From NCBI RefSeq assembly GCF_000151665.1, contig NW_013171866.1, positions 558,001 through 622,000 on the forward strand: a stretch of 64,000 nucleotides of DNA, given 5' to 3'. Position numbers and translations under genes: made by a program. The notes below the pieces were generated by a model that did not search any database, was not told the origin of the DNA, and saw nothing but the letters and a program-made list of their open reading frames with translations. This DNA is from Blastocystis hominis (lineage: Eukaryota > Sar > Bigyra > Opalinata > Blastocystidae). Positions 34-56,916 of the stretch are shown here, piece after piece; the first letter of the stretch is position 1; the number at the start of each line of letters is the position of its first letter.

Positions 34-153
34 ATTGATTCGAAATGCAAGGACAGATGTCACTGCTTGTGCGTGTACAACGAGAAGAACGAGAGTAGTG
101 ATGATAGTGGGAGTGATATATCGATCAGTCCGACAGAGATTAAAGTGAAATGA
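1..153 (+). CDS. 3' end of an unknown element gene (partial)
   Basis: A frame is open from the window edge to TGA at 151-153. It ends in a Cys-rich stretch (KCKDRCHCLC) followed by a Ser/Asp-rich acidic tail. Its visible beginning is made of a double hairpin (1-33), so the hairpin is translated in frame. No family is recognised. The next gene on the same strand starts 48 bp downstream. Confidence 0.5.
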   Translation, partial: RSCPGESEALPIDSKCKDRCHCLCVYNEKNESSDDSGSDISISPTEIKVK

Positions 154-201
154 GGGATGCCTAAATAGATTTAAATAATGTAAACATAAATAGAAATACA
201 A

Positions 202-639
202 ATGAACTGTTGGATGAATGATGAACGTCTTGATATCACACGTAAATATGTGCATGATATGATTAATTCATTTGTTGATGATCCCAAAGGTACAAATTAT
301 CATAATGAGTATAATCCTCCTTATATGATGATAAATTCACCCGATCTTCAACATCTTCTTGTGAAATCATGTTATGATGATAAATACATAGTGAAGTATG
401 GGGGACAAAGTGGGGCGACAAAGTCGCCCCGGGAAGCCGAAGGCTTCCCACAAAGTCCCGCCGGGGAAGGTTCGCTTCCCCGAAACATTGCTGAACTCCG
501 TGCTTTCAATGAGAATATCTATGATATCGAAGGTCATCGTGTGATGACATTAGGTGGTGATATAATTATCATTGATATCGATGGTGTTGCATTTGATCAA
601 CTCGAATGTGTATCGGGTAAACGATTACCGCCAAAGTAA
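202..639 (+). CDS. Hypothetical element protein interrupted by nested hairpins
   Basis: 145 residues with no recognised family. The N-terminal ~70 residues are acidic and hydrophilic; the C-terminal ~50 contain a hydrophobic patch (GDIIIIDIDGVAF). Between them, residues ~68-93 are encoded by two nested double hairpins (401-481), which keep the frame and add a Gly/Ser/Pro/Arg-rich stretch. The start follows an A-rich leader (AAATACAAATG). The gene converges on the fiber-like gene at 684, with a palindromic spacer between. Function unknown. Confidence 0.6.
   Translation: MNCWMNDERLDITRKYVHDMINSFVDDPKGTNYHNEYNPPYMMINSPDLQHLLVKSCYDDKYIVKYGGQSGATKSPREAEGFPQSPAGEGSLPRNIAELRAFNENIYDIEGHRVMTLGGDIIIIDIDGVAFDQLECVSGKRLPPK
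401..481. repeat. Nested double hairpins in the 145-residue gene
   Basis: The inner 40-bp element (411-450: T, GGGGCGAC-AAA-GTCGCCCC, GGGAAGCC-GAA-GGCTTCCC, A) is flanked by CAAAG (406-410 and 451-455). Removing it and one CAAAG restores the outer hairpin GGGAC-AAA-GTCCC, which is followed by GGGGAAG...CTTCCCC. An insertion with a 5-bp target duplication explains this exactly. Confidence 0.9.
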
Positions 640-673
640 AAGACTGGAAGCCACGGCTTCCTTTTTCACTTTG
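632..673. terminator. Palindromic spacer between convergent genes
   Basis: Inverted repeat CAAAGTAAAA...TTTTTCACTTTG enclosing the hairpin GGAAGCC-acg-GGCTTCC. It lies exactly between the stop at 639 and the convergent stop at 684. A related CAAAGTAAA...TTTACTTTGG palindrome lies between the convergent genes at 5519/5557, which suggests a shared 3'-end signal. The role is inferred from position. Confidence 0.5.
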
Positions 674-683
674 TCTCCTCCCC

Positions 684-1949
684 CTACAGTTCCATGATGC
701 TTACCTTCAGTCGAGTGAAGTAATGTTCGATCGTGGTGTCTCCAGAACGTAAGATTTGAATTTTCATATCTACAGGACGTACTGATGTGAATATGTTCGT
801 GCTACTCAATGTCGTTGTTGGCACTGGATTATTCAAGCTTGCTTTAATGATTGTAGCTGTCTCGACACCCATTACGAGAGTTGGCACGCTCGTGAATCCT
901 ACAAGTGCCTGTTCATAGTTGTCACAACGAAGTACGGCATCGATGGTGATCATGTACGTCTTATTGGGTTCCAATTTGATCGGTGCAGAAAGGTCTGAAC
1001 CTTCCGACGTGAGTGCCTCGCTAACAACCTGGTGTCCACTTGTCCAGGAGTACTCGAATGTCTTACTCAATTTAGCCGATGTGGGTGATAACGAGACTGT
1101 GCCGTTTTCTTTGACTTCCATGACGTACTTGCCAGCAGTGGATGGGATTGTTAGCTTGGACACGTTGGTCCCATTGTTGTACACGAGACACTTTTCATTG
1201 CTAGTACACCCGAGGATGTCTTTGTAGACGATCTCAGGCGTGAGATTAGTAAGAATTGGACTCTCATTGCTACTCTCGACCTTGAATGTCGCATAGCCTG
1301 CCGTGGTTGGCAATGGTAGACCATGGGCTCCATCGTTCCAGTAGGTGACGATTCTCTGCCCATCAGATCCGATTCCTAGAGCTTCATGGAAAAGACTTCT
1401 TGGTGTGACCTTGTTGAACTGGTAGTTATTGCTCGAATCGGCTGAAAGGAAGAACGTTCCCGACTTACTTGGTAAAAATAGATCCTTCGAATCACTCTTG
1501 GTCGAATTCCAGTTCGGTATCGCATACCAGTCCGACGTGCTCGTAAGTTCGAGTGCCTCGAAAATTACGGGCTTCGTCAACGCTTCCAATGAAGGACCAC
1601 TATCCGGGTCAGTCGTGAGAATGAAAGAACCACTTTCTGGCAGATTGATCGCTCCGAACGCCGAGTTATTCTTGAAGAAGGGAATAGCTCCATTGGCTGG
1701 AATGATAATCGATTGTCCATCGCTGTCCTTGAAATACGAGTTATCCAAGGAAGTGAAATCTTCACCTGCGACCGACCATGTGTACACATCGTCAGTCTTG
1801 GTAAGCACGTAGTTGCCATTGGTCGACGGAAATGCGAACGTGTCGAAAGAGTTGTCCGAGTAGTACTGGATACCCTCGGTCATCTCCTTGCGTTTGAATA
1901 CTCCATTCTGGAGATATACAAGTTTCTCAGGTTGTGTTGGTGTTGCCAT
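684..1949 (-). CDS. Fiber-like protein with beta-repeat shaft
   Basis: 421 residues. About five irregular repeats of ~50-60 residues carry the pattern LP/FPS-x2-G-x-(Y/F)-x-L (FPSTNGNYVL, LPESGSFIL, LPSKSGTFFL, LPTTAGYATF, IPSTAGKYVM), reminiscent of trimeric fiber shafts of phages and viruses. The last ~130 residues lack the repeat and could be a globular head. There is no signal peptide or membrane segment. The ATG sits in TAGTAAATGG. The gene is divergent from the capsid gene at 2042, with a double hairpin in the 92-bp spacer. A fiber or spike role is inferred from repeats and neighbours. Confidence 0.5.
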   Translation of the reverse strand: MATPTQPEKLVYLQNGVFKRKEMTEGIQYYSDNSFDTFAFPSTNGNYVLTKTDDVYTWSVAGEDFTSLDNSYFKDSDGQSIIIPANGAIPFFKNNSAFGAINLPESGSFILTTDPDSGPSLEALTKPVIFEALELTSTSDWYAIPNWNSTKSDSKDLFLPSKSGTFFLSADSSNNYQFNKVTPRSLFHEALGIGSDGQRIVTYWNDGAHGLPLPTTAGYATFKVESSNESPILTNLTPEIVYKDILGCTSNEKCLVYNNGTNVSKLTIPSTAGKYVMEVKENGTVSLSPTSAKLSKTFEYSWTSGHQVVSEALTSEGSDLSAPIKLEPNKTYMITIDAVLRCDNYEQALVGFTSVPTLVMGVETATIIKASLNNPVPTTTLSSTNIFTSVRPVDMKIQILRSGDTTIEHYFTRLKVSIMEL

Positions 1950-1989
1950 TTACTATGGAGGAGAGAAAACAGTTTTTCCTCGTAGTAAT

Positions 1990-2035
1990 TGGGGAATCTA
2001 CGATTCCCCGGGCGAGAATTAAAATTCTCGCCCTA
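1990..2035. repeat. Double hairpin element
   Basis: GGGGAATC-TAC-GATTCCCC directly followed by GGGCGAGAAT-TAAA-ATTCTCGCCC, with terminal T and TA. It is flanked by the direct repeat TAAT (1986-1989 and 2036-2039). It lies in the divergent promoter region between the fiber-like and capsid genes. Confidence 0.85.
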
Positions 2036-2041
2036 TAATAA

Positions 2042-3331
2042 ATGGCTACTACAATTCCTCCTGTGCATAACTACGAATCGCAGATTGTGTTCAGCAATCA
2101 GTCCAATAACATCAAGTCGACCGATGTGATCAATTGGACGATCGCACCATCTGGTGATGACGTGTACTTCAATCTGTACAAGTCTCGAATGACGTTCAAG
2201 CTCAAGATCACCGGATTGGCAAATAACGCAACAGGTTCACCCAAGGTATTCTATGTTCCAGTGAAGAAGAACATGTCGGGCATTGTGAACAACACGAAGG
2301 TCACGTACACCTATTGGAATGGTGAGAACCTGGCGTCCTTGCCTCTGAGTGCAGACAATGAAAACATCGGCCAGATCCGATCACTCTTGAATGCGCTCAC
2401 GGACAACAAGCACAACAATGTGGTGAATGAAGGATTGAAGGAACTGTCCTACATCTACTACGATGCATTGGACTACGATACTGACGATGAAACCGAGAGA
2501 GCTGCGGCCATCCTGGGTCGACCTTATGGCGGGAAGTTATTCTACAACATGCTCAAGTTCGTACAGCCACCTGGATCGACCACGGCGTACACGACGATCA
2601 ATGTGAACTTTGCAGACATCTTCGAAGGTTGTTCTCAGGAACGATTCATCAATCTCACGCAGATGGATGCTCAGATCTATCCCACGAACGACGATGCATA
2701 CTTCTACATCGATGCTGGCAAAATCAATACCGCTACAAGTCCGGACGCTGTTCCATCAGCCACGGCTTTCACCGGTGTGTACTTCGATACATGCACGCTT
2801 TGGTATCATAGTTACAAGACGAGTGATGATTCGACCTTCGATCCTGAAGACACTCAGTTGGTGAAGAACCAGATCATGACCAAGACGTTCCGTATTCCAA
2901 GTGGACAGGGATTCATCGATGATCGTGTGTTGGTTAACTTCCCCGTCAAGATGATGTTCATGATGTTCACGGACGACGATGGTGATTTCTCGGAACTCCT
3001 TGATGTGCGATTCAAGCGGATCTCATTGAACATCGCTGGTGAACAGAAGCGCATCATCAATGTGGACAACACGAACACACCCGACGGCATTGATCACACT
3101 TTCTTCGAATGGATGGACTATCTTTGCAATAGTCGTTCCGACGAGTACGACACGCTGTTGACGTACAAGACCTGGTTGAATCAGTTCCGCATCTTCGCCT
3201 TCCCGTTGGCCGAGTGGTTCCCGATGCGAGCATCGAATCAGATCCAGTTCGAAATCGAGTTGGAAGAGGAGGTTGCAGCGACGATCCAGATGCACCTCAT
3301 CATGATCCGTGCCAACACGGTGGGAGCGTAA
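2042..3331 (+). CDS. Probable major capsid protein (double jelly-roll type)
   Basis: 429 residues, beta-rich, with no membrane segment or coiled coil. The C-terminus reads as alternating strands ending in an amphipathic IQFEIELEEEV...IQMHLIMIRA segment, like the closing strands of Polinton capsid proteins. It stands just upstream of a small membrane protein and the packaging ATPase, the usual capsid-ATPase neighbourhood. It is the largest virion-like protein lacking fiber or coiled-coil character, and its codon use is strong and even. It is shorter than many Polinton MCPs. The ATG lies in TATAATAAATGG. The assignment rests on context and beta character; a structure prediction showing two jelly rolls would settle it. 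Confidence 0.6.
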   Translation: MATTIPPVHNYESQIVFSNQSNNIKSTDVINWTIAPSGDDVYFNLYKSRMTFKLKITGLANNATGSPKVFYVPVKKNMSGIVNNTKVTYTYWNGENLASLPLSADNENIGQIRSLLNALTDNKHNNVVNEGLKELSYIYYDALDYDTDDETERAAAILGRPYGGKLFYNMLKFVQPPGSTTAYTTINVNFADIFEGCSQERFINLTQMDAQIYPTNDDAYFYIDAGKINTATSPDAVPSATAFTGVYFDTCTLWYHSYKTSDDSTFDPEDTQLVKNQIMTKTFRIPSGQGFIDDRVLVNFPVKMMFMMFTDDDGDFSELLDVRFKRISLNIAGEQKRIINVDNTNTPDGIDHTFFEWMDYLCNSRSDEYDTLLTYKTWLNQFRIFAFPLAEWFPMRASNQIQFEIELEEEVAATIQMHLIMIRANTVGA

Positions 3332-3358
3332 GGGGAGCCGCAGGTTTGTATGGTAACT

Positions 3359-3402
3359 TTGAGGCGACGAAGTCGCCTCGGGAGGCATCTGCGATGCCTC
3401 CA
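3359..3402. repeat. Double hairpin element with 5-bp direct repeat
   Basis: GAGGCGAC-GAA-GTCGCCTC followed by GGGAGGCATC-TGC-GATGCCTCC, then A. Flanked by TAACT at 3354-3358 and 3403-3407. Intergenic, between the capsid gene and the next gene. Confidence 0.88.
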
Positions 3403-3447
3403 TAACTAATATCACTTAAAGATTTCAATAAATAAATATAAATAGAT

Positions 3448-3993
3448 ATGAGCAACAAGATTCAGGTTTTCGATCTTTCCAATGCTTCCAATGTGTCTCT
3501 CACTTCGAATGGATTCAAGAGAGAAGGCGAATCGGCTAAGTATGTTTGCAAGATCACCGATGCTACCATTGTTTTCGTGGGTGACAACTCGAAGTTCGAA
3601 ACAGACAAGAAGAAACTGTTCAACACTTTCTCCATCACACTGCCCAAGGAGCAATCGGAAGTGTTCAAAAGAATCCTCGATGAGACGAAGAGAGAGAATC
3701 AGCCGTGGAGCGAATACGATGGCGAGATCCAGTTCAAAGTGAAATTGAGTCCGAACACGAAGATCGTGAATAACGACAAGAAACCGATCAAAATCGATCT
3801 ACGAAATGTGCCATGTACTGATCTTCGCGAATACAAGGATGCAACGATCGATCTTGTGGTAACCGGGGAGAGCAAGGAGTTCATGAAGGAAGATAAGGAC
3901 GGCAAAAACACCGAGTTCTCGTACACAACTCTCACAGCAACGCAAATCAAGATCAAGGATAAGAATAGTGTCTTCGATTGCGATTTCCTGTAA
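3448..3993 (+). CDS. Unknown element protein, possible OB-fold
   Basis: 181 residues, charged and beta-rich with no membrane segment. The phrase IKIDLRNVP...YKDATIDLVVTGES...TLTATQIKI alternates strands as in OB-fold single-strand DNA-binding proteins, but no diagnostic motif is visible, so this is only a suggestion. The ATG follows an A/T-rich leader with ATAAATAGATATG. Its TAA stop forms part of the TAAATG that starts the next small gene, so the two are tightly coupled. Confidence 0.6.
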   Translation: MSNKIQVFDLSNASNVSLTSNGFKREGESAKYVCKITDATIVFVGDNSKFETDKKKLFNTFSITLPKEQSEVFKRILDETKRENQPWSEYDGEIQFKVKLSPNTKIVNNDKKPIKIDLRNVPCTDLREYKDATIDLVVTGESKEFMKEDKDGKNTEFSYTTLTATQIKIKDKNSVFDCDFL

Positions 3994-4164
3994 ATGGCTA
4001 CCGTGGTTGCTGTGACTACCTTTTTCACTTTGGCTATCATGGTCACCGTGGCTGTCGTGATTGCCGTGGTTGCCTCCATGAATAAATGGAAGATAGTCCG
4101 TACATTCGGGGGCGACAAAGTCGCCCCGGGGTTGTCGAAGACAACCCCATTATTCCCAACATAG
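3994..4164 (+). CDS. Small single-pass membrane protein
   Basis: A 56-residue frame too short for most ORF screens. Residues ~3-28 form an uninterrupted hydrophobic helix (VVAVTTFFTLAIMVTVAVVIAVVA), followed by NKWK and a polar tail. The ATG is in the TAAATG that overlaps the upstream stop, and the frame overlaps the start of the packaging ATPase (4086) in another frame. The double hairpin at 4107-4147 is read by both genes. Small membrane proteins next to the ATPase occur in viruses with an inner membrane; that role is inferred. Confidence 0.55.
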   Translation: MATVVAVTTFFTLAIMVTVAVVIAVVASMNKWKIVRTFGGDKVAPGLSKTTPLFPT

Positions 4165-5519
4165 ACACTACACTACTCTCGATCAAGAACCGAATAAGAC
4201 GATTTAACCATCGATGTCCGTATAACAACAAACGATTGACAAGAAGAACAGAAAATACGCTCAATCAAGCCGAAGTAATGCAGGATACCATCAAACAACG
4301 GATGGAGAATGAAACCGATGAAGAGAAGAGCAAGCAATATGCCAAAATACTGCGAGAACTAGCCGACTACATCCAACCAGAGCAGACCATTGACGAGCAA
4401 TTGCAAGACCTTCGACAGAACAAGGAGAGCATGGGCATTATGAAGTTCGACTGGGAACTTGATTGTCAGGACACATTCCTCAATCAATTCACACTCATCA
4501 TTGCTCCTTCCAAGTCGGGTAAGTCGTTCCTCATCAATCAGTTGTGCTACGAGATACCTCACTCGTTCGACAAGATCTGCTTCTTCATGGGAAAGGTGAG
4601 CTATGAAAACAAGTGTCCACAAGTGCTCAAACATGTCGCCAACAAAGCAGGCATCAAGACACAATGGATCAACACTGACAACGAAGTACGCCCTGAATTC
4701 ACGGATAGCGAGGACGTCGCGTACAAACAATTGAATGAAGATGGATCAAGTGTGGCGATCTACAATGACACCACATATCCGTCCATCTACATCTTCGACG
4801 ACCTGTACACGAAGCCGAACGATCATTGGGTGGTGAACTTCATGGACACCATGGCTTGCATGAGTCGACATCGGAAGACCAGTTGCTTCATTGCATTTCA
4901 AGGATTCTCTCGATTGAGCAACAAGATTCTGGATAACGTCACTCGAATCTTTCTCTTCTACGACATCCTTGGACGAGAGGATCTGTGGCGCAAAATGAAG
5001 ATACCACCACCGAGTAATCTATCCGAGGTACTTCGTGATATCCAGATGGGCATGCACACACGATGGTACTACTTGGATGACGATTCACTGGTCGAGTACG
5101 TCCCATACGAGCTGAGTAGCAAACAACAAGCAATCAACAAGATGCGATCGAAGTTACCGAAGGCATTGAGTGATGAACGAAAACGCAAAGAAGTGGAAGA
5201 GAAACAACGACAAGTACAGCAACTCGAACAAGAATTGGGACGCGCGAAGCAGACCACGCAATCCAAAGTGAATAAGGCACGCACTTACAATCTCTTGGAC
5301 ATCAAAGAGGCCGTTGAAATCAAACCACAGGACTATAGCAAATCCATCAACACCAAGGAATTCCAGTTCGTACAGAAGCCGAGAGATGGAACACAGAACT
5401 GGGAGGTAGGGGGAGCGAAGCTCCCCAGGGAAGCTACGCTTCCCAAGGCTCCGAGTGATAGAGTTACCCCAAAGCAGAAGAAAGGCAAAGGACTGCGTTC
5501 CAAGTACGACTTGACGTGA
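4086..5519 (+). CDS. A32-like genome-packaging ATPase (FtsK/HerA superfamily)
   Basis: 477 residues. Walker A is APSKSGKS at residues ~140-147 within the hydrophobic strand FTLIIA; a Walker B-like strand SIYIFDDLYT follows ~90 residues later, then FIAFQGFSRL, the sensor-like strand. This arrangement fits the ATPases that pump DNA into capsids of Polintons, virophages and large DNA viruses. Residues ~380-400 form a short coiled coil. The ATG lies in ATAAATGG. Two double hairpins are translated in frame: residues ~8-21 near the N-terminus and ~442-453 near the C-terminus, both outside the catalytic core. The gene is convergent with the KilA-N gene. Confidence 0.85.
   Translation: MEDSPYIRGRQSRPGVVEDNPIIPNIDTTLLSIKNRIRRFNHRCPYNNKRLTRRTENTLNQAEVMQDTIKQRMENETDEEKSKQYAKILRELADYIQPEQTIDEQLQDLRQNKESMGIMKFDWELDCQDTFLNQFTLIIAPSKSGKSFLINQLCYEIPHSFDKICFFMGKVSYENKCPQVLKHVANKAGIKTQWINTDNEVRPEFTDSEDVAYKQLNEDGSSVAIYNDTTYPSIYIFDDLYTKPNDHWVVNFMDTMACMSRHRKTSCFIAFQGFSRLSNKILDNVTRIFLFYDILGREDLWRKMKIPPPSNLSEVLRDIQMGMHTRWYYLDDDSLVEYVPYELSSKQQAINKMRSKLPKALSDERKRKEVEEKQRQVQQLEQELGRAKQTTQSKVNKARTYNLLDIKEAVEIKPQDYSKSINTKEFQFVQKPRDGTQNWEVGGAKLPREATLPKAPSDRVTPKQKKGKGLRSKYDLT
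4107..4147. repeat. Double hairpin inside two overlapping genes
   Basis: GGGGCGAC-AAA-GTCGCCCC followed by GGGGTTGTC-GAA-GACAACCCC, flanked by CATT (4103-4106 and 4148-4151). It is translated in frame in both the ATPase N-terminus and the C-terminus of the small membrane protein. Confidence 0.82.
5410..5444. repeat. Double hairpin in ATPase C-terminus
   Basis: GGGGAGC-GAA-GCTCCCC, A, GGGAAGC-TAC-GCTTCCC. Translated in frame as GAKLPREATLP. No clear direct repeat flanks it. Confidence 0.8.
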
Positions 5520-5522
5520 TGT

Positions 5523-5555
5523 CCAAAGTAAAAAAGGTCGCCATGTTTACTTTGG
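5523..5555. terminator. Palindrome between convergent genes
   Basis: CCAAAGTAAA...TTTACTTTGG lies between the ATPase stop (5519) and the convergent KilA-N stop (5557). It shares CAAAGTAAA with the palindrome at 632-673. A bidirectional 3'-end signal is inferred from position only. Confidence 0.5.
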
Positions 5556-5556
5556 G

Positions 5557-6483
5557 CTAACCATCCAAGTCACTTCGCCAACCAAGGCCAACACGTGCTT
5601 GCTTTGCTTCTTTCTCTATTTCTGGAATAATGTCAAATCTCTCTTTTTCCCATACATCCATTGGAATCGTATAATGAGTCTTACGTACCTTTTTCCCACC
5701 ATACTTCTTACACAAGTCTAAAAGGATTTTATCGATCTCGTCTTTGAACGTGAAACCATTCGGTATGTCTTTCACTCTATACACACATACACGTCCCTCT
5801 CTATCCATTTTGGAACATGTACTCTTCCATTTATCTGATTTAACATGTTGTGAATAGATGTGCACATTATCATCATTTTCAACGATAATGTACGTTATGA
5901 AAAAGTACCATTGTTGGCCTACTTTATTTGGCACACGGCGATCCTTCAATTCCTTGTTCTCATGGGTCAGCTCTTCGTTCGCACGTCTCAACTCTTCATT
6001 TGCCTTTCGAAGGTAGTCATTGTCCTCCTGTCGAAGACGTGTTAGGAATCTAAGCACATCGCAGGCAAATGCAGGATCGGCCCACATGAGGCATGCGTGA
6101 AGTAGCTCTTCGCAGATGATGTAACCCTTGTTTGCACCGACAGACGATGATGTCGTGATGTATTGAATCACGTCGCAAATGTCAAACTTGTCGTTTTGAC
6201 CCTCGTTTGACAGTAGGCTCAGATCTGAGCCTACTGTAGATTGACCGTTTTTGGCACTATTTTCACCTTCAGACCGTAGGCTGGAATTCCAGCCTACGCT
6301 TTTTGCCATATGTTCGATCAGTTCTTGGGTCTGCTTGTTTTGTAGGTAATTCTTGAATAGCTTGTTTGTACCGTGCTTCTCGTTGTACTGTCTCAACAGA
6401 TCAGAGACAAGGTACATGCGAATACCATTATCAAGGCACATACGAATCTTGTAGTCGTAGAAGTCAATCTCTTCGAATTTCAT
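5557..6483 (-). CDS. KilA-N/Bro-type DNA-binding protein
   Basis: 308 residues. The N-terminal ~150 residues match the KilA-N/MSV199 layout: DLLRQYNEKH...LFKNYLQNKQTQELI, then KGYIICEELLHACLMWADPAFACDVLRFL, which is the helix with the conserved 'aliphatic-x-W-x-p' core. A coiled coil follows at ~152-180 (NDYLRKANEELRRANEELTHENKEL), and the C-terminal ~120 residues form a separate basic domain. Proteins of this type bind DNA in large DNA viruses and phages. Two perfect palindromes (6211-6298) are translated between the two halves of the KilA-N domain. Confidence 0.7.
   Translation of the reverse strand: MKFEEIDFYDYKIRMCLDNGIRMYLVSDLLRQYNEKHGTNKLFKNYLQNKQTQELIEHMAKSVGWNSSLRSEGENSAKNGQSTVGSDLSLLSNEGQNDKFDICDVIQYITTSSSVGANKGYIICEELLHACLMWADPAFACDVLRFLTRLRQEDNDYLRKANEELRRANEELTHENKELKDRRVPNKVGQQWYFFITYIIVENDDNVHIYSQHVKSDKWKSTCSKMDREGRVCVYRVKDIPNGFTFKDEIDKILLDLCKKYGGKKVRKTHYTIPMDVWEKERFDIIPEIEKEAKQARVGLGWRSDLDG
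6211..6298. repeat. Pair of perfect palindromes inside KilA-N gene
   Basis: A 26-bp loopless palindrome (CAGTAGGCTCAGA/TCTGAGCCTACTG, 6211-6236) and a 24-bp one (CGTAGGCTGGAA/TTCCAGCCTACG, 6275-6298) lie 38 bp apart and share GTAGGCT. They differ from the GGG...CCC double hairpins in ends, spacing and absence of loops. Confidence 0.8.
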
Positions 6484-6568
6484 TTCTATTTGTATTTATG
6501 TATTGAACTCTTTTAAGTACAATAGTTACAGTAGGGGACACTACGTCTTCCCCTGCTTCGCCTTCCCC

Positions 6569-6985
6569 TTACACCCTCTGGATAGCTGGGTCAACAGCGT
6601 CGTGCGTGTACAAGTGAAGGAGTGCCAGGTAGCCACAATTGTTGGCAAAGATCGACTGGTATTTCACTTTGTTCACACGGAACACACGGTTCGTACCTGC
6701 CAACGGGAAGTCATTCATCTCGCCAAAGCTGTCCTGGTAGTTCAGTGTTCCGTCGTCTTCACGGAAGCAAGAAACGAAATGACCAAGCTTACTATTATCC
6801 TCGAATGGTATCCAGATGATGCAATTCGCCGGTTCTTTGTACTTCTTGGCCAAGGACTTGTACTTGTCCAATTCCATCACATCGAAGTCGGGTATCTCGA
6901 GTTGCTTGGCCAAGGAACGGACTTCATCGAAAGTCATTGGTTCAGCATCCACATTCATGTAGCCGTGCATATACAATTTCTTCAA
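6569..6985 (-). CDS. Adenain-like maturation cysteine protease (PRO)
   Basis: Up to 138 residues. The catalytic set is visible in family order: His69 in KLGHFVSC, Asp85 in YQDSFG, Gln110 and Cys117 in YQSIFANNCGYLALLHLY. This is the C5/Ulp1-type protease that cleaves capsid precursors in Polintons. The first codon of the open frame is TTG; the first ATG (residue 6) is the likelier start, giving ~133 residues, short but complete. A double hairpin lies immediately upstream (6989-7029). The gene follows the pVI-like precursor on the same strand; that precursor holds many G-G-A sites of the sort this protease family cleaves. Confidence 0.85.
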   Translation of the reverse strand: MKKLYMHGYMNVDAEPMTFDEVRSLAKQLEIPDFDVMELDKYKSLAKKYKEPANCIIWIPFEDNSKLGHFVSCFREDDGTLNYQDSFGEMNDFPLAGTNRVFRVNKVKYQSIFANNCGYLALLHLYTHDAVDPAIQRV

Positions 6986-6988
6986 TAC

Positions 6989-7029
6989 GGAGGAAGCAGA
7001 GCTTCCTCCCGGGGCAGCGTTGCTGCCCC
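6989..7029. repeat. Double hairpin element
   Basis: GGAGGAAGC-AGA-GCTTCCTCC, C, GGGGCAGC-GTT-GCTGCCCC. Near-matching flanks AATAC/AGTAC. It separates the protease from the precursor-protein gene. Confidence 0.85.
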
Positions 7030-8067
7030 TCAGTACACTCTCCTTCGAATTACTGACTCGTGCATCTTGTTCTCGTTCTGGGGCAGGGCTGTGAGAATGC
7101 GATTCTTTTTTTTCGTCGGGACTTCAATTGCTTGTGTCTCGTTGTCCAGGTCAGAAATATCGTAGCCGGCACCAGCTTTGCTTTCCTTTCCCTGAATCTG
7201 GTTTGCGACGTCTGCGATGCCATCCTTTGCCATGTCACCCACCACGTTCGCGATCTGTTTCACAGTATCCGATCCTGTCTTCTGGGATACATAGTTCAAT
7301 CCCTTGTTGATCGCGTTATTCGCAGCATTCGTGCCAGCATTCACCAGAATATCGGTGATGGGTTTCAACTTGTCGGCATTGTTGTCGTACCAACCTTTGA
7401 TCTTGTTCCAGGCATTCTTGAAGAACGTGCCAACACGACTTGAACCGGCGTACAAGGCTCCACCTCGGACTTCGATGTTTTTACTTTGTCGTTCGATGGC
7501 TTTCATGGTCTTCAACACGTCGTCGTAGTCGGATGGGTTGATTCCATTGAGGAACACAGCAGAAGCTCCGCCGGATCGAAGATCCGGCGAGGGGGAAGCA
7601 CAGCTTCCCCCTGTCGCTCCGCCGAATTTCAGCGCGCCACCCTCCTTACCCTTCACTAGCTCTTTGAGGCTTGAGATGATCTGTGGAGCCATCTGAATGA
7701 GCGCTGGGATGATCGTGGCAGCAAGAGTACCAAGTGCTCCGCCTTTCTTTAGTCCGGTCAGCTCGTTCATCAATTGCGCTTCATTGAATGCCAGGGCTCC
7801 TCCGGGTTTACAACTTCCCCCTGCTGCGCCACCTTCCTTGAAGCCAATGGCTCCACCGGTGTCCTTGAAGCCAATGGCACCAGCACTTTTCGCTGGAGCT
7901 CGCTTCGGTGATCGTTTCTTTCTCTTTGGTGTGTTGTTTACTGGTGCTTCGAGTTCCTTGTGTAGATTCAATGTCTTGCGTCGATCCACAATCGTTCCAC
8001 TATCCTGTTCTCGGAAATCGGGTTCGCCATAGAAAGCAGATATATCAACAGTGAATGGAATTGCCAT
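7030..8067 (-). CDS. Gly-rich virion precursor, pVI-like
   Basis: 345 residues. The N-terminal half is basic and carries repeated short Gly-Gly-Ala blocks (TGGAIGFK, EGGAAGG, PGGALAF, KGGALG, EGGALKFGGA, RGGALYAG) separating hydrophobic or amphipathic segments, e.g. LGTLAATIIPALIQMAPQII. The part after RGGALYAG (FFKNAWNKIKGWYDNNADKL, then a NAINKGLNYV helix) resembles in layout the membrane-lytic amphipathic region of adenovirus protein VI released by protease cleavage at a GG site. The adenain-like protease gene is next door, so maturation by it is plausible. One hairpin pair (7570-7611) is translated in frame. The start lies in GCATAAATGG. Confidence 0.6.
   Translation of the reverse strand: MAIPFTVDISAFYGEPDFREQDSGTIVDRRKTLNLHKELEAPVNNTPKRKKRSPKRAPAKSAGAIGFKDTGGAIGFKEGGAAGGSCKPGGALAFNEAQLMNELTGLKKGGALGTLAATIIPALIQMAPQIISSLKELVKGKEGGALKFGGATGGSCASPSPDLRSGGASAVFLNGINPSDYDDVLKTMKAIERQSKNIEVRGGALYAGSSRVGTFFKNAWNKIKGWYDNNADKLKPITDILVNAGTNAANNAINKGLNYVSQKTGSDTVKQIANVVGDMAKDGIADVANQIQGKESKAGAGYDISDLDNETQAIEVPTKKKNRILTALPQNENKMHESVIRRRVY
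7570..7611. repeat. Double hairpin inside precursor-protein gene
   Basis: CCGGATC-GAA-GATCCGG, CGA, then GGGGGAAGC-ACA-GCTTCCCCC. It lies between two copies of GCTCCGCCG, which may be a target duplication or just repeated Gly-Gly-Ala codons. Translated in frame. Confidence 0.7.
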
Positions 8068-8106
8068 TTATGCCTACAAAGTGAAAAGCGAATTGTCCGT
8101 CTTCAT

Positions 8107-8766
8107 TTAGCCATTGAAACCTTGTGTAATGAACATATCCTTGATCGTGTTGTACGTATTTTGCAGATATTGCTCGAATTGTTGATCTACATTGACAGCA
8201 AACCGTTTGATCTTGTTTTTCATGTAGTCCAAATAATCAGGAGTTAGATCCTTACTATTAGCTACTCGTATGAAGAAACTCATCAGTTCGGGGTCTTCAT
8301 TTCGATCACGATAAGCCCTGAAGAGACGTGAGAATCCAAGGTCATTTGCAAATTGAGCGAAAACAGGATTGTTGAAATTGCGAGCAAGCAAACTTGAGAA
8401 AGCAATGAAATCTTCGCGAGTATCATCGCTTTCCCAACTTTCCTTGGTGGAATTAGAATCTTTACTTTCATACGCGTCAATCAAGGCTGCAGCTCGATTC
8501 ACTTGATCGATTGCTTGAGGTGTGAAACTAGCATTTACACTTTCAGATTGACGACCGTCCAGTACAATCACAGGTTGAATTTGTGGCTGATTCCGGAAAT
8601 ATTCATATGATTGCCAAATGGCATCCATTAAGTTCTGGATTCCTCTCATATTCTGCTGATACAATTGTTGATATAATTGTTCCCGGGACAGCTGAGTATC
8701 AGCAAAATGATTACTCATTGTAGTAAGCAGCTGACCAGTTTGAGCATGTCCATCAAACAATGGCAT
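8107..8766 (-). CDS. Unknown helical element protein
   Basis: 219 residues, mostly helical and polar, starting with a heptad-like region (LSREQLYQQLYQQNMRGIQNLMDAI) and lacking membrane segments. No family is recognised. The ATG lies 14 bp inside the end of the upstream 629-residue gene, so the two are probably expressed together. Both look like internal structural or tegument-type virion components; that is inferred. Confidence 0.6.
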   Translation of the reverse strand: MPLFDGHAQTGQLLTTMSNHFADTQLSREQLYQQLYQQNMRGIQNLMDAIWQSYEYFRNQPQIQPVIVLDGRQSESVNASFTPQAIDQVNRAAALIDAYESKDSNSTKESWESDDTREDFIAFSSLLARNFNNPVFAQFANDLGFSRLFRAYRDRNEDPELMSFFIRVANSKDLTPDYLDYMKNKIKRFAVNVDQQFEQYLQNTYNTIKDMFITQGFNG

Positions 8767-10642
8767 TAGCCAACATCTTGTCAGACAGGTTGTTAGTTTG
8801 AGTCTGATTATCAGTGAGTTGGCTACTCATGGAATTGAATCCATTTGTCAACATGTTAGCCGTCTGAGTCTGATTATCAGTGAGTTGGCTACTCATGGAA
8901 TTGAATCCATTTGTCAACAGGTTACCAGTTTTAGTCTGATTGTCAGTGAGTTGATCAACAATTGCACCCGTAGAATCTTTGATTAACTTGGTTGTTTGAT
9001 CTTGTCCTTGTTCATATTGGTTGCCCAGAGCATTCGTACCATCCAATAGTTGTTTCCTAGTTGTCTTTCCCTCTTCTTTAACAACTTTACCAAGAGTTAC
9101 CAGTTTCATATTCATAAGCGCTATTCTATTAGAAATATTTCTAAACATAGGTGCGAAACGATTGAATGATTCAACCAACCGTTTGTTGATTTCGTCATAT
9201 GCTTTTTCCAACTCACCAGATACGAATTTCTGAATGAAGCTATTTCGCTCTAGCCATTGTTTCAAGAAATCATTGTACTGCGTCTTCATGAACTCTGTCA
9301 ATTCATCAATTCGCATTTCACTTTGTGTTGGAATCAATGCTTTGATATCAGCAATTGCAGGAGGATCGGGTTTGTTTTCAATACCTTGCAGACGAGCTTC
9401 GACTTGTTGCAAATACTGATTACTATTTTTAATCACAGCCTTCTGTTGATTTACCAAGTCACCAATTTTCTGGATCAACTTGTTGTCTCCTGTCGCAATG
9501 CTTTTTGCCAGTTCAGCATACTTATCACTCAACGACTTGATTCCTTGGTTCGTTTTTTGCAATTTGGTATTAACATCCTTCAACAAGTTCAACATCTTAG
9601 GATAACCATTCTGCGCATCTTGTAAGAAGTTGATTCGTTGTGCTACTTGGGTGACTACTTTGTAAATATTGCCAAGGTTCGCCTGGATATCGAAGCTGTT
9701 CATCACAGCAATCACATCATCCAACTTATCGAGAATGGGTGCCACATCCAAATTGACGACCGGTGGCGGCGCATTCATCTCTTGTACCACCTCACTACTT
9801 AGATCTACATGTCGTGATTCGGGTTTGATCATCCATTGGCCATGTTCAACACGACCTTCAGATCGCAATTTATTGTATTCCGGACTACCTCGCGTTGCTT
9901 TATGTGTTAAACCATGAACATATACCGTACTATTGTCGTCATTCCATAATAGAAGTGTTTCCTCTGGATCGACATTTACCGACAGATCATTTCGCAGGCT
10001 ATCAATATCATTATGAAACGATACACTCTGTTGAGCAAATGTGTTGACGCTTTCTCCCATTCGTTGAACCGCATTCGATATGTTGTCCGCAGCATTCTTC
10101 ATTTCTTCGATACTAGCTCCAAAATCACCAGGTAAATTCATGATTTGTATCTCGCCTGCATGCTCTGTAGGGAAGATGATACGATAGGGCGATACAGGTT
10201 CATATCCAAATGGATTATCAAACACAGCTCGTTTCTCCATATTGAGTAACTTGTGATTCACAGATTGAACAACGATCTTGTTGAATTGTCTGTCAATTTT
10301 GGCATTGTAGACCACGTTGTCCTCGAATGAGTACAGCAGCACGTTCTCTTTATCAATTCGTCGAATTTGATAACCACGCATGTTTGAAATGGGAGTACGA
10401 CGTCGATCAGCGGGTGAGAGATTCATGTACGAATCAAACATCGCTCGCTTTTCTAGCCAATGATCACTCATCATTCGCTGTTGATTATATTCATCTTCAA
10501 CGACTTTATCGAAATATCGATTCAACATCCTGTCCATTATTCTTCTCGATTTCACTTTGTATCTTCTGCTTCGAATGATTGGAATTATAGGAACATAATC
10601 ACCTTCACGCCACTCGAGTTCTTGTGTACTTGGTTCATCCAT
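8753..10642 (-). CDS. Large coiled-coil structural protein
   Basis: 629 residues. The N-terminal ~200 residues form a basic domain (RRYKVKSRRIMDRMLNRYFDKVV). From ~180 on the protein is dominated by long coiled coils (FNRFAPMFRNISNRIALMNMKL, KAVIKNSNQYLQQVEARLQGI). The last ~80 residues contain 22-residue tandem repeats (QLTDNQTQTANMLTNGFNSMSS). The start is in CAAAGTAAATGG. No family is recognised. Length, coiled coils and tail repeats recall phage tape-measure or fiber-stalk proteins, but that is only an analogy. Confidence 0.65.
   Translation of the reverse strand: MDEPSTQELEWREGDYVPIIPIIRSRRYKVKSRRIMDRMLNRYFDKVVEDEYNQQRMMSDHWLEKRAMFDSYMNLSPADRRRTPISNMRGYQIRRIDKENVLLYSFEDNVVYNAKIDRQFNKIVVQSVNHKLLNMEKRAVFDNPFGYEPVSPYRIIFPTEHAGEIQIMNLPGDFGASIEEMKNAADNISNAVQRMGESVNTFAQQSVSFHNDIDSLRNDLSVNVDPEETLLLWNDDNSTVYVHGLTHKATRGSPEYNKLRSEGRVEHGQWMIKPESRHVDLSSEVVQEMNAPPPVVNLDVAPILDKLDDVIAVMNSFDIQANLGNIYKVVTQVAQRINFLQDAQNGYPKMLNLLKDVNTKLQKTNQGIKSLSDKYAELAKSIATGDNKLIQKIGDLVNQQKAVIKNSNQYLQQVEARLQGIENKPDPPAIADIKALIPTQSEMRIDELTEFMKTQYNDFLKQWLERNSFIQKFVSGELEKAYDEINKRLVESFNRFAPMFRNISNRIALMNMKLVTLGKVVKEEGKTTRKQLLDGTNALGNQYEQGQDQTTKLIKDSTGAIVDQLTDNQTKTGNLLTNGFNSMSSQLTDNQTQTANMLTNGFNSMSSQLTDNQTQTNNLSDKMLANAIV
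8790..8960 (-). repeat. 66-bp tandem repeat encoding 22-residue units
   Basis: About 2.5 copies of a 66-bp unit ending the coiled-coil gene. The first two copies are nearly identical, which points to recent expansion; copy number may differ between element copies. Confidence 0.8.
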
Positions 10643-11344
10643 TTACTTTGTCTTTTTCGAATAGCACGAAATCGTGAATGAGATATACACATTCGAATTC
10701 AAGGAGATCGGACGGTCATTCGCGTCTGTCAGTACCCAATCAATGTAGTCCAGGTTCGATTGTTCAATCACATCGATCGATAGGTTGTCCCAGGTGATCA
10801 TGTTGTTCAGTCCCATCGATACATGAATCAGGTTATCGATCAACGGACTCTTCAGACCGAATGTTTGAGCATTGATACTACTGTAGACTCGGATCACACT
10901 CATGCCATTCGTGATGTCGTATGGCTCTGAGGCAGCAACGTTGCTACCTCCTACCACACCTTCCAACTTGAGGATACTCGTGTAATCAGGTGTGCCACTA
11001 AGGTCAACAGCGGTCGCCACATCACTGTTCAAGTATGCTCGGTTAACATCGTCTACCTGGATGGAATCGGCTATCGCACGGCATAACTCGGTAATCGAGT
11101 AGTAGCCAGGACCGACGTTGTACACCATTTCAAACCCTGACAGCATTTGAACCTTCACCACATTCATTGCACGAATGTTCCAGAGAGAAGTGGTATCGAT
11201 CTTGCATGTAATCGAAGTGATCTTGTACACAAGGTCACGAGGCATGATCACTGTGTTGAACGTTTCATGGTATCGTTCGTTGTTCTTCGGAATTACTGTA
11301 TTGTGGTTAATCACACTTACCGGTAGTGCACGATTATGACTCAT
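10643..11344 (-). CDS. Single-module relative of the large surface protein
   Basis: 233 residues that align by eye with one module of the 1,069-residue protein at 11663-14872: a G-P-G-Y-Y-S-I-T-E-L box followed by ALA/ALN-like residues, a D-(I/F)-T-N box, and a closing WVLTDANDRPISLNSNVYISFTI segment. This 'x-D-x-(N/D)-G-x-P-(I/L)-x-F' ending is seen in a known but uncharacterised Polinton protein family (from memory). The start is ACAATAAATG, overlapping the end of the upstream gene. A virion surface or penton-associated role is inferred. Confidence 0.6.
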   Translation of the reverse strand: MSHNRALPVSVINHNTVIPKNNERYHETFNTVIMPRDLVYKITSITCKIDTTSLWNIRAMNVVKVQMLSGFEMVYNVGPGYYSITELCRAIADSIQVDDVNRAYLNSDVATAVDLSGTPDYTSILKLEGVVGGSNVAASEPYDITNGMSVIRVYSSINAQTFGLKSPLIDNLIHVSMGLNNMITWDNLSIDVIEQSNLDYIDWVLTDANDRPISLNSNVYISFTISCYSKKTK

Positions 11345-11666
11345 TTATTGTGTGGAAGTGAATGCACACTGTAATCGGCATTGGCAGGGCAATCGTTGCA
11401 CCGGTCTTATCGGTCAACGAGAATGACCATTTGCGACTTTTGGGTACCACGACGTTCATGTGTGCATTCTCCGTGTACTCCTCGTTCAATACAACCAACG
11501 GAGACTGTCGTCGTTCTTGCATGTTGTTCACTCGATCAAGGACAAGGCAGGTGCCAGGCGATTCTCCCTTCATAGTCACTCTGTCGATTACCATGTCGCT
11601 TTTGATGAGATTGTTACTTGTGAATTCATGTTCGTACGTTCGAGCAATGTTGAACACTAGATTCAT
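11334..11666 (-). CDS. Small beta-rich element protein
   Basis: 110 residues, beta-rich (WSFSLTDKTGATIALPMPITVCIHFHT). Its ending, SLTDKTGATI...PITVCIHFHT, resembles the closing strand pair of the adjacent module family, so it may be a half-module relative. It overlaps its downstream neighbour by 11 bp and its upstream neighbour by 4 bp; the start is AATAATAAATG. Function unknown. Confidence 0.55.
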   Translation of the reverse strand: MNLVFNIARTYEHEFTSNNLIKSDMVIDRVTMKGESPGTCLVLDRVNNMQERRQSPLVVLNEEYTENAHMNVVVPKSRKWSFSLTDKTGATIALPMPITVCIHFHTINES

Positions 11667-14600
11667 TTATTATTTCCTCCTGAAACGGTGAATCCGATTA
11701 GCAGGTACACGTTCCCAATGAACGATAGCGGGTCACCATTTTCGTCCTTCAATTCGTACACGATGCGATCAAGCAATTCAGAACATGGTACCAACATGCG
11801 ATTCTTGTAGAAGTAATTCTTGTACAAGCTGTCCATCGGGACATTCGCAAGCAGTGGTATCGTCTTGCTTTTCACGATGTTGCAATACAGCTGTATGTTC
11901 GATAGACCGTTCGTGATATCGACAGGATACTCGGCAACCATCGGACCATAGTTGGCATAGTACACACCATCGTCGAAAGGGATACGCCATGTATGCGATT
12001 GCGATCCTGAAGCGGGAACGATGGTTCCCAGGTTGCCACTCAACGAGAACACGTAGTCTGCGTGAATGTAGTACCCATCTGACTCAGCTTTCCATCGTAT
12101 GTTCAGTGCAGCCGAGTCAAAACACTGGTTCATGTGCCATATCATGTCAGTCTGAGTCAATCGTGATGGTATGGTCCACGTGAATGTCTGAACGTCATCC
12201 GTGTACGTGATATCAGTCTCGGGGGAAGCACTGCTTCCCTCTTCGTCCAGTGTCATCATTCCGTACGGGAAGCGAATCGTTGTGTTAGCCGTGTACGACT
12301 CAGATTGTTCCCAGTCAACGAAGGTAGCCAATGATGGAACAACAACTTCATCATTCCTCACATAGTGGGGCAGCGAAGCTGCCCCGGGGAAGCTTTGCTT
12401 CCCCACATACGTAACACGTGTCGGTTGTATGAATTCGATCGACACAGCACGATCGGAATACGTACTACCTTTGATCATATTCGTCACATTCAGTCCATCG
12501 ATGTTTGCCATCGCAAACTCGTAAGGTGATGTCAACTCGGGCATTCTGATGTAGTAATTGCGATAAAACTCGAAATAACAAGACAAATACACACCACCTG
12601 GTTCAGCGTATGGTCCGGGTATAATCTTGAAAAATGGATTATCACAAAACAATATGAATCGTGGTTCTGTACCATTTCGACATCCCATTCGTACTCGACC
12701 ACCATTATCTGCAATGACATATACCAAGTACCCTCCGAGAGACGCATCTACATATATCTTATTGATCACATTAGCGATCATATTCACGATATCAATAGCG
12801 CTATAATGACCTCGTTGGATTGTGAGAGGTCTTTCGCCATATCCACGTATTCCAAGTATAAAATTCGTCGTATCGATAAACACTTTCGTGTGATATATAC
12901 TATCCTTGGAATACCAAGGTCCGATCGAAGAACCATTCGATGACACCAAGTCACCTGTATTTTCCGATGTGATATGCAATTCCAATTCTGGTGCATAGTC
13001 CTTCGCAGTCCATGACATGCTTTCTCTATTGTCATTCACCGTCCACGCAATCGCATTCTGGTGAGATGGAGGTAGTTCCATAGCACTCGCATATCGAGCA
13101 TTGAGTTCATTAAAACATGTGGTTGTAAGAGTATTCATCTTGATCGGGGTAGACGTATCTTCCGTTATGTAGAATTCACCACTATCGAGTACTGAACCAT
13201 CAGCTAAACGCATCGTGTATGTCGCGAGAGGCTTTAGCAGGAACCGATTATCATTCGTACGCATTTTCCAGTCATACGCAATGAAGGTGTTTGATCCTAT
13301 GTACGCATGACCACCAATACCTTGATCATTCGTCATATCAGGTGGGGAATCGCTTTCAGGGTTGAACGAAGTTTCCATAGGTCGTTCGATGCACAGGTTC
13401 TGCACAGATGGAGACAGTTTGAACCATGGAGTCCAACCAAAACCATTGATCGTCGTGTCATCACTGGATCGATCGAAATACCATCCGTCTGCTTGGACAT
13501 TGAAGCGAACATGATCAACCTCGATCGTCATGGATGTGAGTGGAAGCACTTTCACCATCTCAGCACCGACAGCCTCGATGAACTCGCTGAACGTGTAGTA
13601 ACCGACAGGCAATGTCAACATGTGCGATTCCCTGCTGTCAGTAACAACCACGTGATTACACGAGGAAGACAGGTAGTAGCGCTTCGGGTTATCCACTCCT
13701 TTCACCAAGATGTCAGATTCGAAACCAAGGATTGACCTGATCTCTGGTGCATTCGTGAAATCAATCATGTAGAAGTGATCTACCGTGATGTGGAACGCAT
13801 TCTCACCGCTATACACCAATTCGAACAGGGCATCACTTGCATTCAGCTTTGCAATGATCGTTTCGATGTCGTATGCACCGCGTGGTATCGCGATCTCTTG
13901 AATCGTAGCGCCAGCATTGATTAGCACCACTTGGTCAGTCGGCACGTTGTGCAACACGAAGTCCGTATACAACGACACAGACGAGATGTAGCACTGGTCG
14001 AACGAGAGAGGATTGTCCAGCTTCACTTCCTTCTTCGTGGTATTACCGAACACTTCGATCATACTGAACTGGTTTGCAGAGGCAATCGTTGGGGGTGACG
14101 ATGTCACCCCCGTGGGAAGCGAAGCTAGGCGGAACGAAGTTCCGCCGGGAGGCTTTGCCTCCCAAGCTTCCCCCATCGATGAAGGCACTTCATCATACAC
14201 GTCTTCAATCGTCAACTGGAGTTCGAATTCGCCGTTCAGTCGCATCATCTTGCCATCCATATCGCGGAAGACGAACATCAATTGATCAAACCGAGTGATC
14301 ATTGGTATACGCACGTCTTCCACACTTCGCACGTAGTCAGCCGTTGGATCGTCAATAATCATCGTGGTGAGCAGGTTGTTGTTCTGGTTGGCAATCTTCA
14401 GGTCCGATGATCGCACGATCGTCGAGTAGACCTGAATCACTTGGCGATTTCGCGTGATATCAATCACATTCGATCCACTGAACGAAGCAGGCAGAATGAC
14501 CGTTCGTCCATCGAAGCCGAGGATCTCACGAATGTCAGGTGCATCTGTGAAGTCAATGGTGTGTGGAGACTGAATCCAGATACAGCCGAACGACGAGGCG

Positions 14601-14872
14601 TTAGTAGATATCGAGAATGTAGTATCAGTCATGGTATTGAGCAAGGCAATGATCTCACTGATCGTGTAATAACCAGCAGGGATTGTCACAGTCTCATCAT
14701 TGCTGTTAGTAATCACATTCGTCGTGTCAACGTTGTTGAACATAGCCTGGGCATCCTTGGGTCGAAACAGGACAGTCATGGAAGTGATATAAGGATTCTT
14801 GTACTTGTAGGGGTTGATCCAGGTGAATGAGCCGTTGGTAGGTGAGCCTTGAATAAGCATGGAGTAGTGCAT
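11663..14872 (-). CDS. Large modular virion surface protein
   Basis: 1,069 residues built of about four to five modules. Each module has a box (I-P-A/R-G-x-Y-x-I-x-E-I-I-A-x-L-N), a D-F-T-(D/N)-A-P-(D/E)-I-R-(E/S)-I-L-G-F box and a closing F-x-D-x-(D/N)-G-(K/D)-x-(M/L)-x-F strand pair. Copies are seen around residues 1-220, 270-420, 420-560, 650-860 and 890-1065. There is no signal peptide. Hairpins at 12220-12241, 12365-12404 and 14089-14174 are translated in frame in linkers between modules. The ATG at 14872 has no TAAATG, unlike its neighbours. Role as a spike or vertex protein is inferred. A decayed copy of the first two modules ends element copy F. Confidence 0.7.
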   Translation of the reverse strand: MHYSMLIQGSPTNGSFTWINPYKYKNPYITSMTVLFRPKDAQAMFNNVDTTNVITNSNDETVTIPAGYYTISEIIALLNTMTDTTFSISTNASSFGCIWIQSPHTIDFTDAPDIREILGFDGRTVILPASFSGSNVIDITRNRQVIQVYSTIVRSSDLKIANQNNNLLTTMIIDDPTADYVRSVEDVRIPMITRFDQLMFVFRDMDGKMMRLNGEFELQLTIEDVYDEVPSSMGEAWEAKPPGGTSFRLASLPTGVTSSPPTIASANQFSMIEVFGNTTKKEVKLDNPLSFDQCYISSVSLYTDFVLHNVPTDQVVLINAGATIQEIAIPRGAYDIETIIAKLNASDALFELVYSGENAFHITVDHFYMIDFTNAPEIRSILGFESDILVKGVDNPKRYYLSSSCNHVVVTDSRESHMLTLPVGYYTFSEFIEAVGAEMVKVLPLTSMTIEVDHVRFNVQADGWYFDRSSDDTTINGFGWTPWFKLSPSVQNLCIERPMETSFNPESDSPPDMTNDQGIGGHAYIGSNTFIAYDWKMRTNDNRFLLKPLATYTMRLADGSVLDSGEFYITEDTSTPIKMNTLTTTCFNELNARYASAMELPPSHQNAIAWTVNDNRESMSWTAKDYAPELELHITSENTGDLVSSNGSSIGPWYSKDSIYHTKVFIDTTNFILGIRGYGERPLTIQRGHYSAIDIVNMIANVINKIYVDASLGGYLVYVIADNGGRVRMGCRNGTEPRFILFCDNPFFKIIPGPYAEPGGVYLSCYFEFYRNYYIRMPELTSPYEFAMANIDGLNVTNMIKGSTYSDRAVSIEFIQPTRVTYVGKQSFPGAASLPHYVRNDEVVVPSLATFVDWEQSESYTANTTIRFPYGMMTLDEEGSSASPETDITYTDDVQTFTWTIPSRLTQTDMIWHMNQCFDSAALNIRWKAESDGYYIHADYVFSLSGNLGTIVPASGSQSHTWRIPFDDGVYYANYGPMVAEYPVDITNGLSNIQLYCNIVKSKTIPLLANVPMDSLYKNYFYKNRMLVPCSELLDRIVYELKDENGDPLSFIGNVYLLIGFTVSGGNNK
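12220..12241. repeat. Single hairpin remnant in surface-protein gene
   Basis: GGGGGAAGC-ACT-GCTTCCCTC. It has one arm pair only, with one mismatch at the end, and may be a half or decaying double hairpin. Confidence 0.65.
12365..12404. repeat. Double hairpin with 5-bp direct repeat
   Basis: GGGGCAGC-GAA-GCTGCCCC followed by GGGGAAGC-TTT-GCTTCCCC, flanked by ACATA at 12360-12364 and 12405-12409. Translated in frame within the large surface protein. Confidence 0.88.
14089..14174. repeat. Nested double hairpins (one inserted in another)
   Basis: The outer element is GGGGGTGAC-GAT-GTCACCCCC followed by a GGGAAGC...GCTTCCC arm pair, flanked by ATCG (14085-14088 and 14175-14178). The outer second arm is split by an inner 37-bp copy (14127-14163: GGCGGAAC-GAA-GTTCCGCC + GGGAGGC-TTT-GCCTCCC) flanked by AAGCT (14122-14126 and 14164-14168). 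Removing the inner copy and one AAGCT restores a perfect outer hairpin with the usual GAA loop. Confidence 0.9.
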
Positions 14873-14906
14873 GGTCTTTCTCTCTTTACCTTAGTCAACA
14901 AGACAA

Positions 14907-14952
14907 TGGGGAGGAATCGAAGATTCCTCCCGGGGCAACGTACGTTGCCCCA
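14907..14952. repeat. Double hairpin near the end of element copy A
   Basis: GGAGGAATC-GAA-GATTCCTCC and GGGGCAAC-GTAC-GTTGCCCC, with outer T and A. It lies 35 bp upstream of the surface-protein start and is the last clear element sequence before host DNA. Confidence 0.85.
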
Positions 14953-56859: not shown

Positions 56860-56916
56860 TTAAATATTTATATATTTATATTTATCTCTTTTTACCCCAG
56901 TTCACGCCTTGATTAA

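Follow-up and report, generated by a model that had tools for sequence, protein, structure and literature searches.

Elements built of two adjacent hairpins, the double-hairpin elements (DHEs), were reportedly described by Paquin, Laforest and Lang in 2000 from fungal mitochondrial DNA (Allomyces). In a window of 64 kb of the Blastocystis hominis genome (contig NW_013171866.1, here C38, positions 558,001 to 622,000), two-hairpin units, for which the same name is used, occur on Polintons, virus-like elements of nuclear DNA. These DHEs are real and very probably mobile, they look like tiny selfish elements on another selfish element, and it is probable that they constitute non-autonomous mobile double-hairpin elements living on Polintons.

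The mitochondrial DHEs and the repetitive hairpin elements of sponge mitochondrial DNA (PMC2800124) resemble the Blastocystis elements in being adjacent stem-loops that are scattered, vary in number between close relatives, and are also located in genes. In Blastocystis, the differences in presence and absence exist between Polinton copies of one genome. Unlike the mitochondrial DHEs, those of Blastocystis reside not in organelle DNA but in nuclear Polintons on large contigs beside host genes, none is encountered in the host DNA examined, and target duplications, loop inversion, and GNA loops are evident. The Rickettsia palindromic elements (RPE), selfish DNA inserting in frame in protein genes (PMC10969869), share palindromic structure and in-frame insertion with the DHEs; however, they comprise about 150 bases with a conserved encoded peptide, whereas DHEs comprise about 40 bases, have no fixed peptide, and vary in arms and loops. 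REPINs of bacteria, families of related modules in which two palindromes form the mobile unit (PMC3116915), have the palindrome doublet in common with DHEs, but are inverted REP pairs linked to RAYTs; among 10 Polinton open reading frames (ORFs) scanned with Pfam at a loose threshold, no RAYT/HUH transposase was detected. The Submariner elements of Pandoravirus, miniature inverted-repeat transposable elements (MITEs) of about 27-72 bases, also invade viral DNA, some within protein genes (PMC5799277), but they are single inverted-repeat elements of a giant virus, neither paired perfect hairpins nor residents of Polintons. Like MITEs in general, DHEs are short and non-autonomous and are flanked by target duplications; in contrast to MITEs, each half of a DHE is a hairpin of its own, and a comparison with the Polinton termini revealed no terminal inverted repeats in common with an autonomous transposon.

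Such elements are not reported for Polintons in the accessible parts of the open-access literature consulted, including PMC10120064 and PMC12220804, and as far as our searches go they are undescribed there. How short hairpin elements move is unsettled, and according to the sponge study the obstacle is that population samples are lacking (PMC2800124). In Blastocystis, a single genome contains about 70 carriers that are closely related and present occupied and empty sites side by side, together with duplications, flips, nesting, and in-frame insertions, so that the mechanism becomes open to direct tests.

Hairpin pairs in the window and in the genome

The window belongs to an assembly of 18.7 Mb in 40 contigs and contains parts of two Polintons (Table 1), the rest being host DNA. 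When perfect stems of at least 7 bases with loops of 3-6 bases are sought, 11 pairs of adjoining hairpins emerge; the Polinton at 1-15183 accounts for 10 of them, and the second Polinton fragment for the remaining one. DHEs consist of two abutting hairpins of about 35-44 bases in total, with stems of 7-10 bases (7 being the minimum of the scan) and loops mostly of 3. Under one fixed definition, the Polinton parts of 15.2 and 7.3 kb (22.5 kb) harbor 10 + 1 pairs, and the host parts of 37.2 and 4.3 kb (41.5 kb) harbor none, with 2 single hairpins. No pair appears in 60 dinucleotide shuffles of the Polinton parts, and the hairpin pairs of the window are not due to chance. The 12 places listed in the initial annotation all exist, the one at 13-33 being the second hairpin of a pair whose first is truncated by the start of the window, and the proposed confinement to the Polinton agrees with the absence of pairs from 41.5 kb of host DNA. 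The copy given at 57419-57458 is real as well, but its place had to be corrected: it lies not in host DNA but in the second Polinton fragment, between polymerase (52402-54408) and rve integrase (57995-59035) frames, so that confinement is stronger than originally stated.

A sequence-neutral half-pattern (GGGG-11 bases-CCCCGGGG) has 112 forward and 115 reverse matches in the genome, 227 altogether, versus 0 + 0 for the reversed control. The first 100 of these 227 merge to 69 places, and among these matches listed, 66 of the 69 places are situated within 15 kb of a Polinton marker, such zones covering at most 17% of the genome. The other 3, and 2 outliers among 50 places listed for another pattern, are Polinton by blastn, most of their length aligning to the Polinton parts of the window at an identity of about 92-97%. 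DHEs are therefore located in or near Polintons at all genome places examined, and an equal density in host genes, which the initial annotation had named as a counter-argument, is not found. In 42 non-overlapping Polinton stretches (182 kb), 105 pairs were counted, or 0.58 per kb, and by extrapolation the genome total may amount to several hundred to a thousand pairs. A scan of IMG/VR with a double-hairpin pattern yields 13 stretches in GC-rich contigs, only one of which scores as a pair, and this is a G/C run.

The four inner stem pairs, which the half-pattern does not demand, are perfect in 86 of the 100 rows listed and show one mismatch in 14, while the chance expectation for four perfect pairs is 1 in 256, in a set of rows that includes repeated sequences. 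The earlier statement that pairing stays perfect is thus very nearly correct. That structure rather than sequence is conserved is worded too strongly, as 5' arms are purine-rich and mostly start with GGG, and the arms are drawn repeatedly from a limited set.

Occupied and empty sites, loop inversion, and insertions within genes

Features beyond the initial annotation are target duplications, loop inversion, GNA loops, in-frame insertion, and nesting. Presence, absence, and net insert length were compared in 43 Polinton stretches (L numbers). Since Polinton copies are alike, occupied and empty sites are directly readable: presence, identity, and loop orientation of hairpins vary between copies, and empty sites exist, so that the other counter-argument foreseen at the outset, identical hairpins at the same sites in all Polintons, does not apply either. 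Among 54 distinct events, the flanks are duplicated over at least 4 bases in 28, over 2-3 bases in 20, and not at all in 6; random re-pairing of flanks (500 trials) gives duplications of at least 4 bases in 7.5% on average and in 19% at most. Duplications of 4-7 bases characterize about half of the events, and 0-3 extra bases accompany the duplications. Most inserts exceed the hairpin length by 6-8 bases, and net inserts are mostly 42-54 bases long, the net length varying with the empty copy chosen as reference (up to three were tabulated).

The site at window 4109-4148 is instructive: the right TACATT copy is altered in the window, L009 has the intact arrangement TACATT-CG-(pair)-TACATT, and 12 copies share an empty site with plain TACATT. 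Similar arrangements are TACACT-A-(pair)-TACACT in L010, ACTTTG-T-(pair)-ACTTTG in L026, and TAACT-T-(pair)-TAACT in L008, and further duplications deduced from empty sites are CAAAG (L060) and ACATA (window 12367 compared with L065). The same arms are encountered at different sites: arm pair GGCGGAAC/GGGAGGC at three, and arm pairs GAGGCAAC/GGGAGGAAGC and GGGAAGCC/GGGGCGAC at two sites each, and single hairpins turn up with different partners. The arm pair of 412-449 also adjoins ORF421 in L026 and L029, a different site that is unoccupied in the window (664-675). Some targets are reused by different pairs: TAACT by two (at the 3361-3401 site and by another DHE in L008 and L028), TACAC by two, in tandem in L020, and TATGTAT likewise by two, which follow each other in L061. 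Where nesting is clear (L020 versus L021, L011, L055, and window 14128), the inner pair is inserted no more than a few bases from the loop of the outer hairpin, and CTTCGT is duplicated at a hairpin tip (L020 versus L021). L066 possesses the outer DHE of the 14091-14174 site without the inner one.

Loops were surveyed in 42 stretches without overlap, 4-base loops included. A second loop form exists at 12 hairpins of shared sites, and each of these 12 forms matches the reverse complement of the more frequent one exactly (GAA/TTC, TGC/GCA, AAA/TTT, or TTTA/TAAA, for example); no other kind of variant was seen, and 32 multi-copy hairpins have no loop variant. The two loops of one pair flip independently. 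Three-base loops occur in 79 hairpin types, 53 of which have GNA on one strand (random triplets, 12.5%), and a C-G pair closes 75 of 85 hairpin types. The motif C-GNA-G is that of extraordinarily stable DNA mini-hairpins (PMC4686876), which suggests that the folded form is DNA. Openness in all six frames was considered as a selected trait of DHEs and rejected: stops are absent from all six frames in 36 out of 59 distinct DHEs (61%) versus 66% with permuted arms, and a mean of 44% remains when the purine bias is also removed, so that nothing but the purine bias of the 5' arms is left of this property.

Within genes, DHEs preserve the reading frame. For 27 events chosen from earlier lists, 11 lie in a gene by tblastn, and the net length of all 11 is a multiple of 3 (42-54 bases), with the start of the protease-like frame being uncertain in two of them (window 6989 and L055). 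Among 15 other events with a net length, 8 are multiples of 3 (9 with the commoner empty form at the stop codon of ORF429), and the two sets differ with P of about 0.01-0.02. Two more in-frame cases are found in ORF1069 (12367, net 45; 14128, net 42), and no pairs exist inside ORF429 in 29 loci. Of two close relatives of the ATPase-like protein from other data sets, P0090 has a C-terminal insert like that of 5410-5444 and P0091 does not; the N-terminal insert is absent from all those of 88 ATPase-like relatives whose N-terminus is present.

Mode of movement and competing explanations

DHEs would travel as single strands in folded form, released through strand displacement by the Polinton polymerase, and a hairpin-cutting activity would nick them at the stem base or the tip. 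If a hairpin nicked at its stem base opened and were then copied, the same arms would be restored with a reversed loop, and one activity could therefore explain flips as well as release. The ends of parvoviruses undergo flip/flop by an analogous copying of opened hairpins. If the folded unit were joined to a staggered cut of a second Polinton undergoing replication, the insertion and the duplicated bases would result, and the places at which Polinton DNA becomes single-stranded or extrachromosomal would account for confinement. One possible joining enzyme is the rve integrase of the Polinton, given that Polinton duplications measure 6 bases. Some polinton-like viruses with a tyrosine recombinase have duplications located 1-3 bases off the element (PMC12220804), and by analogy with this similar offset, a tyrosine recombinase route might be a further lead. 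In its most specific form, the proposal is a tentative one: DHEs may be mobile DNA found only on virus-like DNA, made of no more than two hairpins with ultra-stable GNA tips; an enzyme that recognises hairpins, belonging to the Polinton or to the site of its replication, would copy and paste the folded single strand, hairpin tips would be among the favoured targets, and host chromosomes would stay out of reach. The viral mobilome would thereby gain a layer, a parasite of an endogenous virus-like element, and DHE confinement may mark DNA that passes through a viral replication stage.

Several points weigh against mobile elements of this kind. No transposase or nuclease for DHEs was found, and their ends do not match the Polinton termini AGTAGTAGGG. 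The duplications are uneven (20 of 54 events with 2-3 bases, 6 of 54 with none), and a single integrase would not give such variable lengths. Some sites, such as the ORF429 stop codon, resemble a local fold-back or partial deletion rather than a clean insertion, and a DHE could also spread by recombination between Polinton copies, with no transposition involved. The frame argument loses force because the typical unit of 38 + 7 = 45 bases is by itself divisible by 3, and confinement is established only for the places among the matches listed.

If DHEs were instead by-products of replication, template switching at small inverted repeats would make or correct palindromes and flip their loops, and recombination would spread them. 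Loop inversion is what hairpin template switching could do, and small inversions caused by hairpins are known from plastid DNA (PMC5910586). In addition, empty copies also contain the sequence of one arm of the DHE located at the stop codon of ORF429, and between ORF181 and the ATPase-like ORF, L012 and L029 have chimeric single hairpins with the 5' arm of one hairpin and the 3' arm of the other, which are likely deletion products. Template switching alone could explain the flips and these chimeras, but not complete double units with flanking duplications and with arm pairs that recur at different sites, and clear empty sites hold no half-palindrome as template for 36-44 bases, which makes this origin quite improbable. 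Movement of DHEs in trans by the Polinton rve integrase seems rather unlikely: the enzyme is present and the 6-base Polinton duplications come near the 6-8-base excess of most DHE inserts, but the terminal sequence of Polintons is missing from DHE ends, the length of exact duplications is not constant, and DHEs are found within Polintons whereas Polintons themselves are found in host DNA.

Hairpins at transcript ends follow a 'hairpin rule' in Mimivirus, and several DHEs with their strong GC-rich stems are indeed situated in intergenic gaps; yet others are located in frame in genes or between divergent 5' ends, and many close copies lack a DHE in the same gap, so that a role as functional Polinton signals is very improbable. 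Palindromes are error-prone and loop flips could be misreads, but an assembly or sequencing artefact is hardly credible in view of proteins of other data sets that carry or lack a DHE-coded peptide, of 227 matches versus 0 in the control, and of contigs up to 2 Mb. Mobile double-hairpin elements on Polintons therefore remain the probable explanation.

Polinton carriers and other features of the window

Table 1. Polinton parts and hairpin elements of the window
Feature	Position	Strand	Location or composition	Further observations
Polinton, right two thirds	1..15183		whole element about 22.8 kb, C38:550355-573183	right terminus ...CCCTACTACT
DHE cut by window edge	1..33		13-33 is the second half	first hairpin C38:557994-558012, starting 7 bases outside
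DHE	412..449		apparently nested in an outer hairpin	7-base flanking duplication ACAAAGT; further hairpin 462-482
DHE	1991..2033		between divergent ORFs	several copies empty
DHE	3361..3401		between ORF429 and ORF181	target TAACT; both loops inverted among copies
DHE	4109..4148		in frame, N-terminus of ATPase-like ORF	target TACATT; net 48 bases
DHE	5410..5444		in frame near C-terminus of ATPase-like ORF	
DHE	6989..7029		ORF345/protease-like junction	net 48; second DHE nested in it in L055
DHE	7569..7612		in frame in ORF345	net 51
Single hairpin, DHE type	12223..12239		in ORF1069	
DHE	12367..12404		in frame in ORF1069	target ACATA; net 45; L065 empty
Nested DHE	14091..14174		in ORF1069	inner 14128-14163 in frame, in second hairpin of older DHE; net 42
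DHE	14909..14951		upstream of ORF1069	
Second, broken Polinton fragment	52402..59035	(-)	polymerase frames 52402-54408 and 54436-56388, rve integrase 57995-59035	
DHE	57421..57458		second Polinton fragment	relative at C9:24411

The carriers encode a family B viral-type polymerase (PF03175, 1.3e-17) together with an rve integrase (PF00665, 5.9e-12), as expected of Polintons/Mavericks. Their termini are AGTAGTAGGG...CCCTACTACT, inverted termini being present in 4 of 4 elements inspected, and 6-base target duplications are exact in two of the four (GATACG, ATAATA) and have one mismatch in another (AATGTA/ATTGTA). Unlike these three copies, the window's own Polinton (ends at C38:550355 and window 15183) has no recognisable target duplication, and its ends may have recombined. 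A stretch at G000:C5:489900-490582 aligns at 94% across the end of the window's Polinton together with the host DNA flanking it; judging from this alignment, the locus including the Polinton end seems to be duplicated near a contig end.

ORF429 codes for a conserved protein of 429 amino acids (2042-3331) with 83 genome matches, some of which are fragments of one copy, and the long matches show 87-100% identity. As a capsid candidate it has no Pfam, PHROG, or convincing PDB match, and no relatives were found in IMG/VR with a single sequence or an alignment as query. The Polinton polymerase has 66 scored genome matches among 287 candidates. In the second Polinton, the polymerase gene (52402-56388) is split in two frames of 668 and 650 amino acids, and many other copies have open polymerase frames of about 1,470-1,520 amino acids. 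Neither an Rfam search of the window nor a comparison of phage records with window 1-20000 gave a match.

The Polinton parts of the window contain the word CAAAGTGAA at 10 positions (673, 3735, 4032, 5264, 6671, 8077, 9325, 10559, 53074, and 56420) and the host parts at none, and this word is perhaps a Polinton signal; some DHE targets (ACTTTG, CAAAG) coincide with words of this type. The KilA-N gene contains two perfect palindromes (6210-6237 and 6275-6298, stems of 12 and 10 bases, loops of 4 bases) that have a common core GTAGGCT and differ from DHEs, and the 3' end of a 629-amino-acid ORF consists of about three units of a 66-base repeat (8785-8982). The word TGTTTGTT is present once per 2,561 bases of the genome (7,304 occurrences versus 5,456 for the reversed control word), and for Blastocystis a density of one per 2,751-3,097 bases is given (PMC5608401). 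In the host DNA, an ORF at 16350-21493 comprises a 15-base repeat array and four tandem units of 996 bases, which are 99% alike over the 300-base stretches compared.

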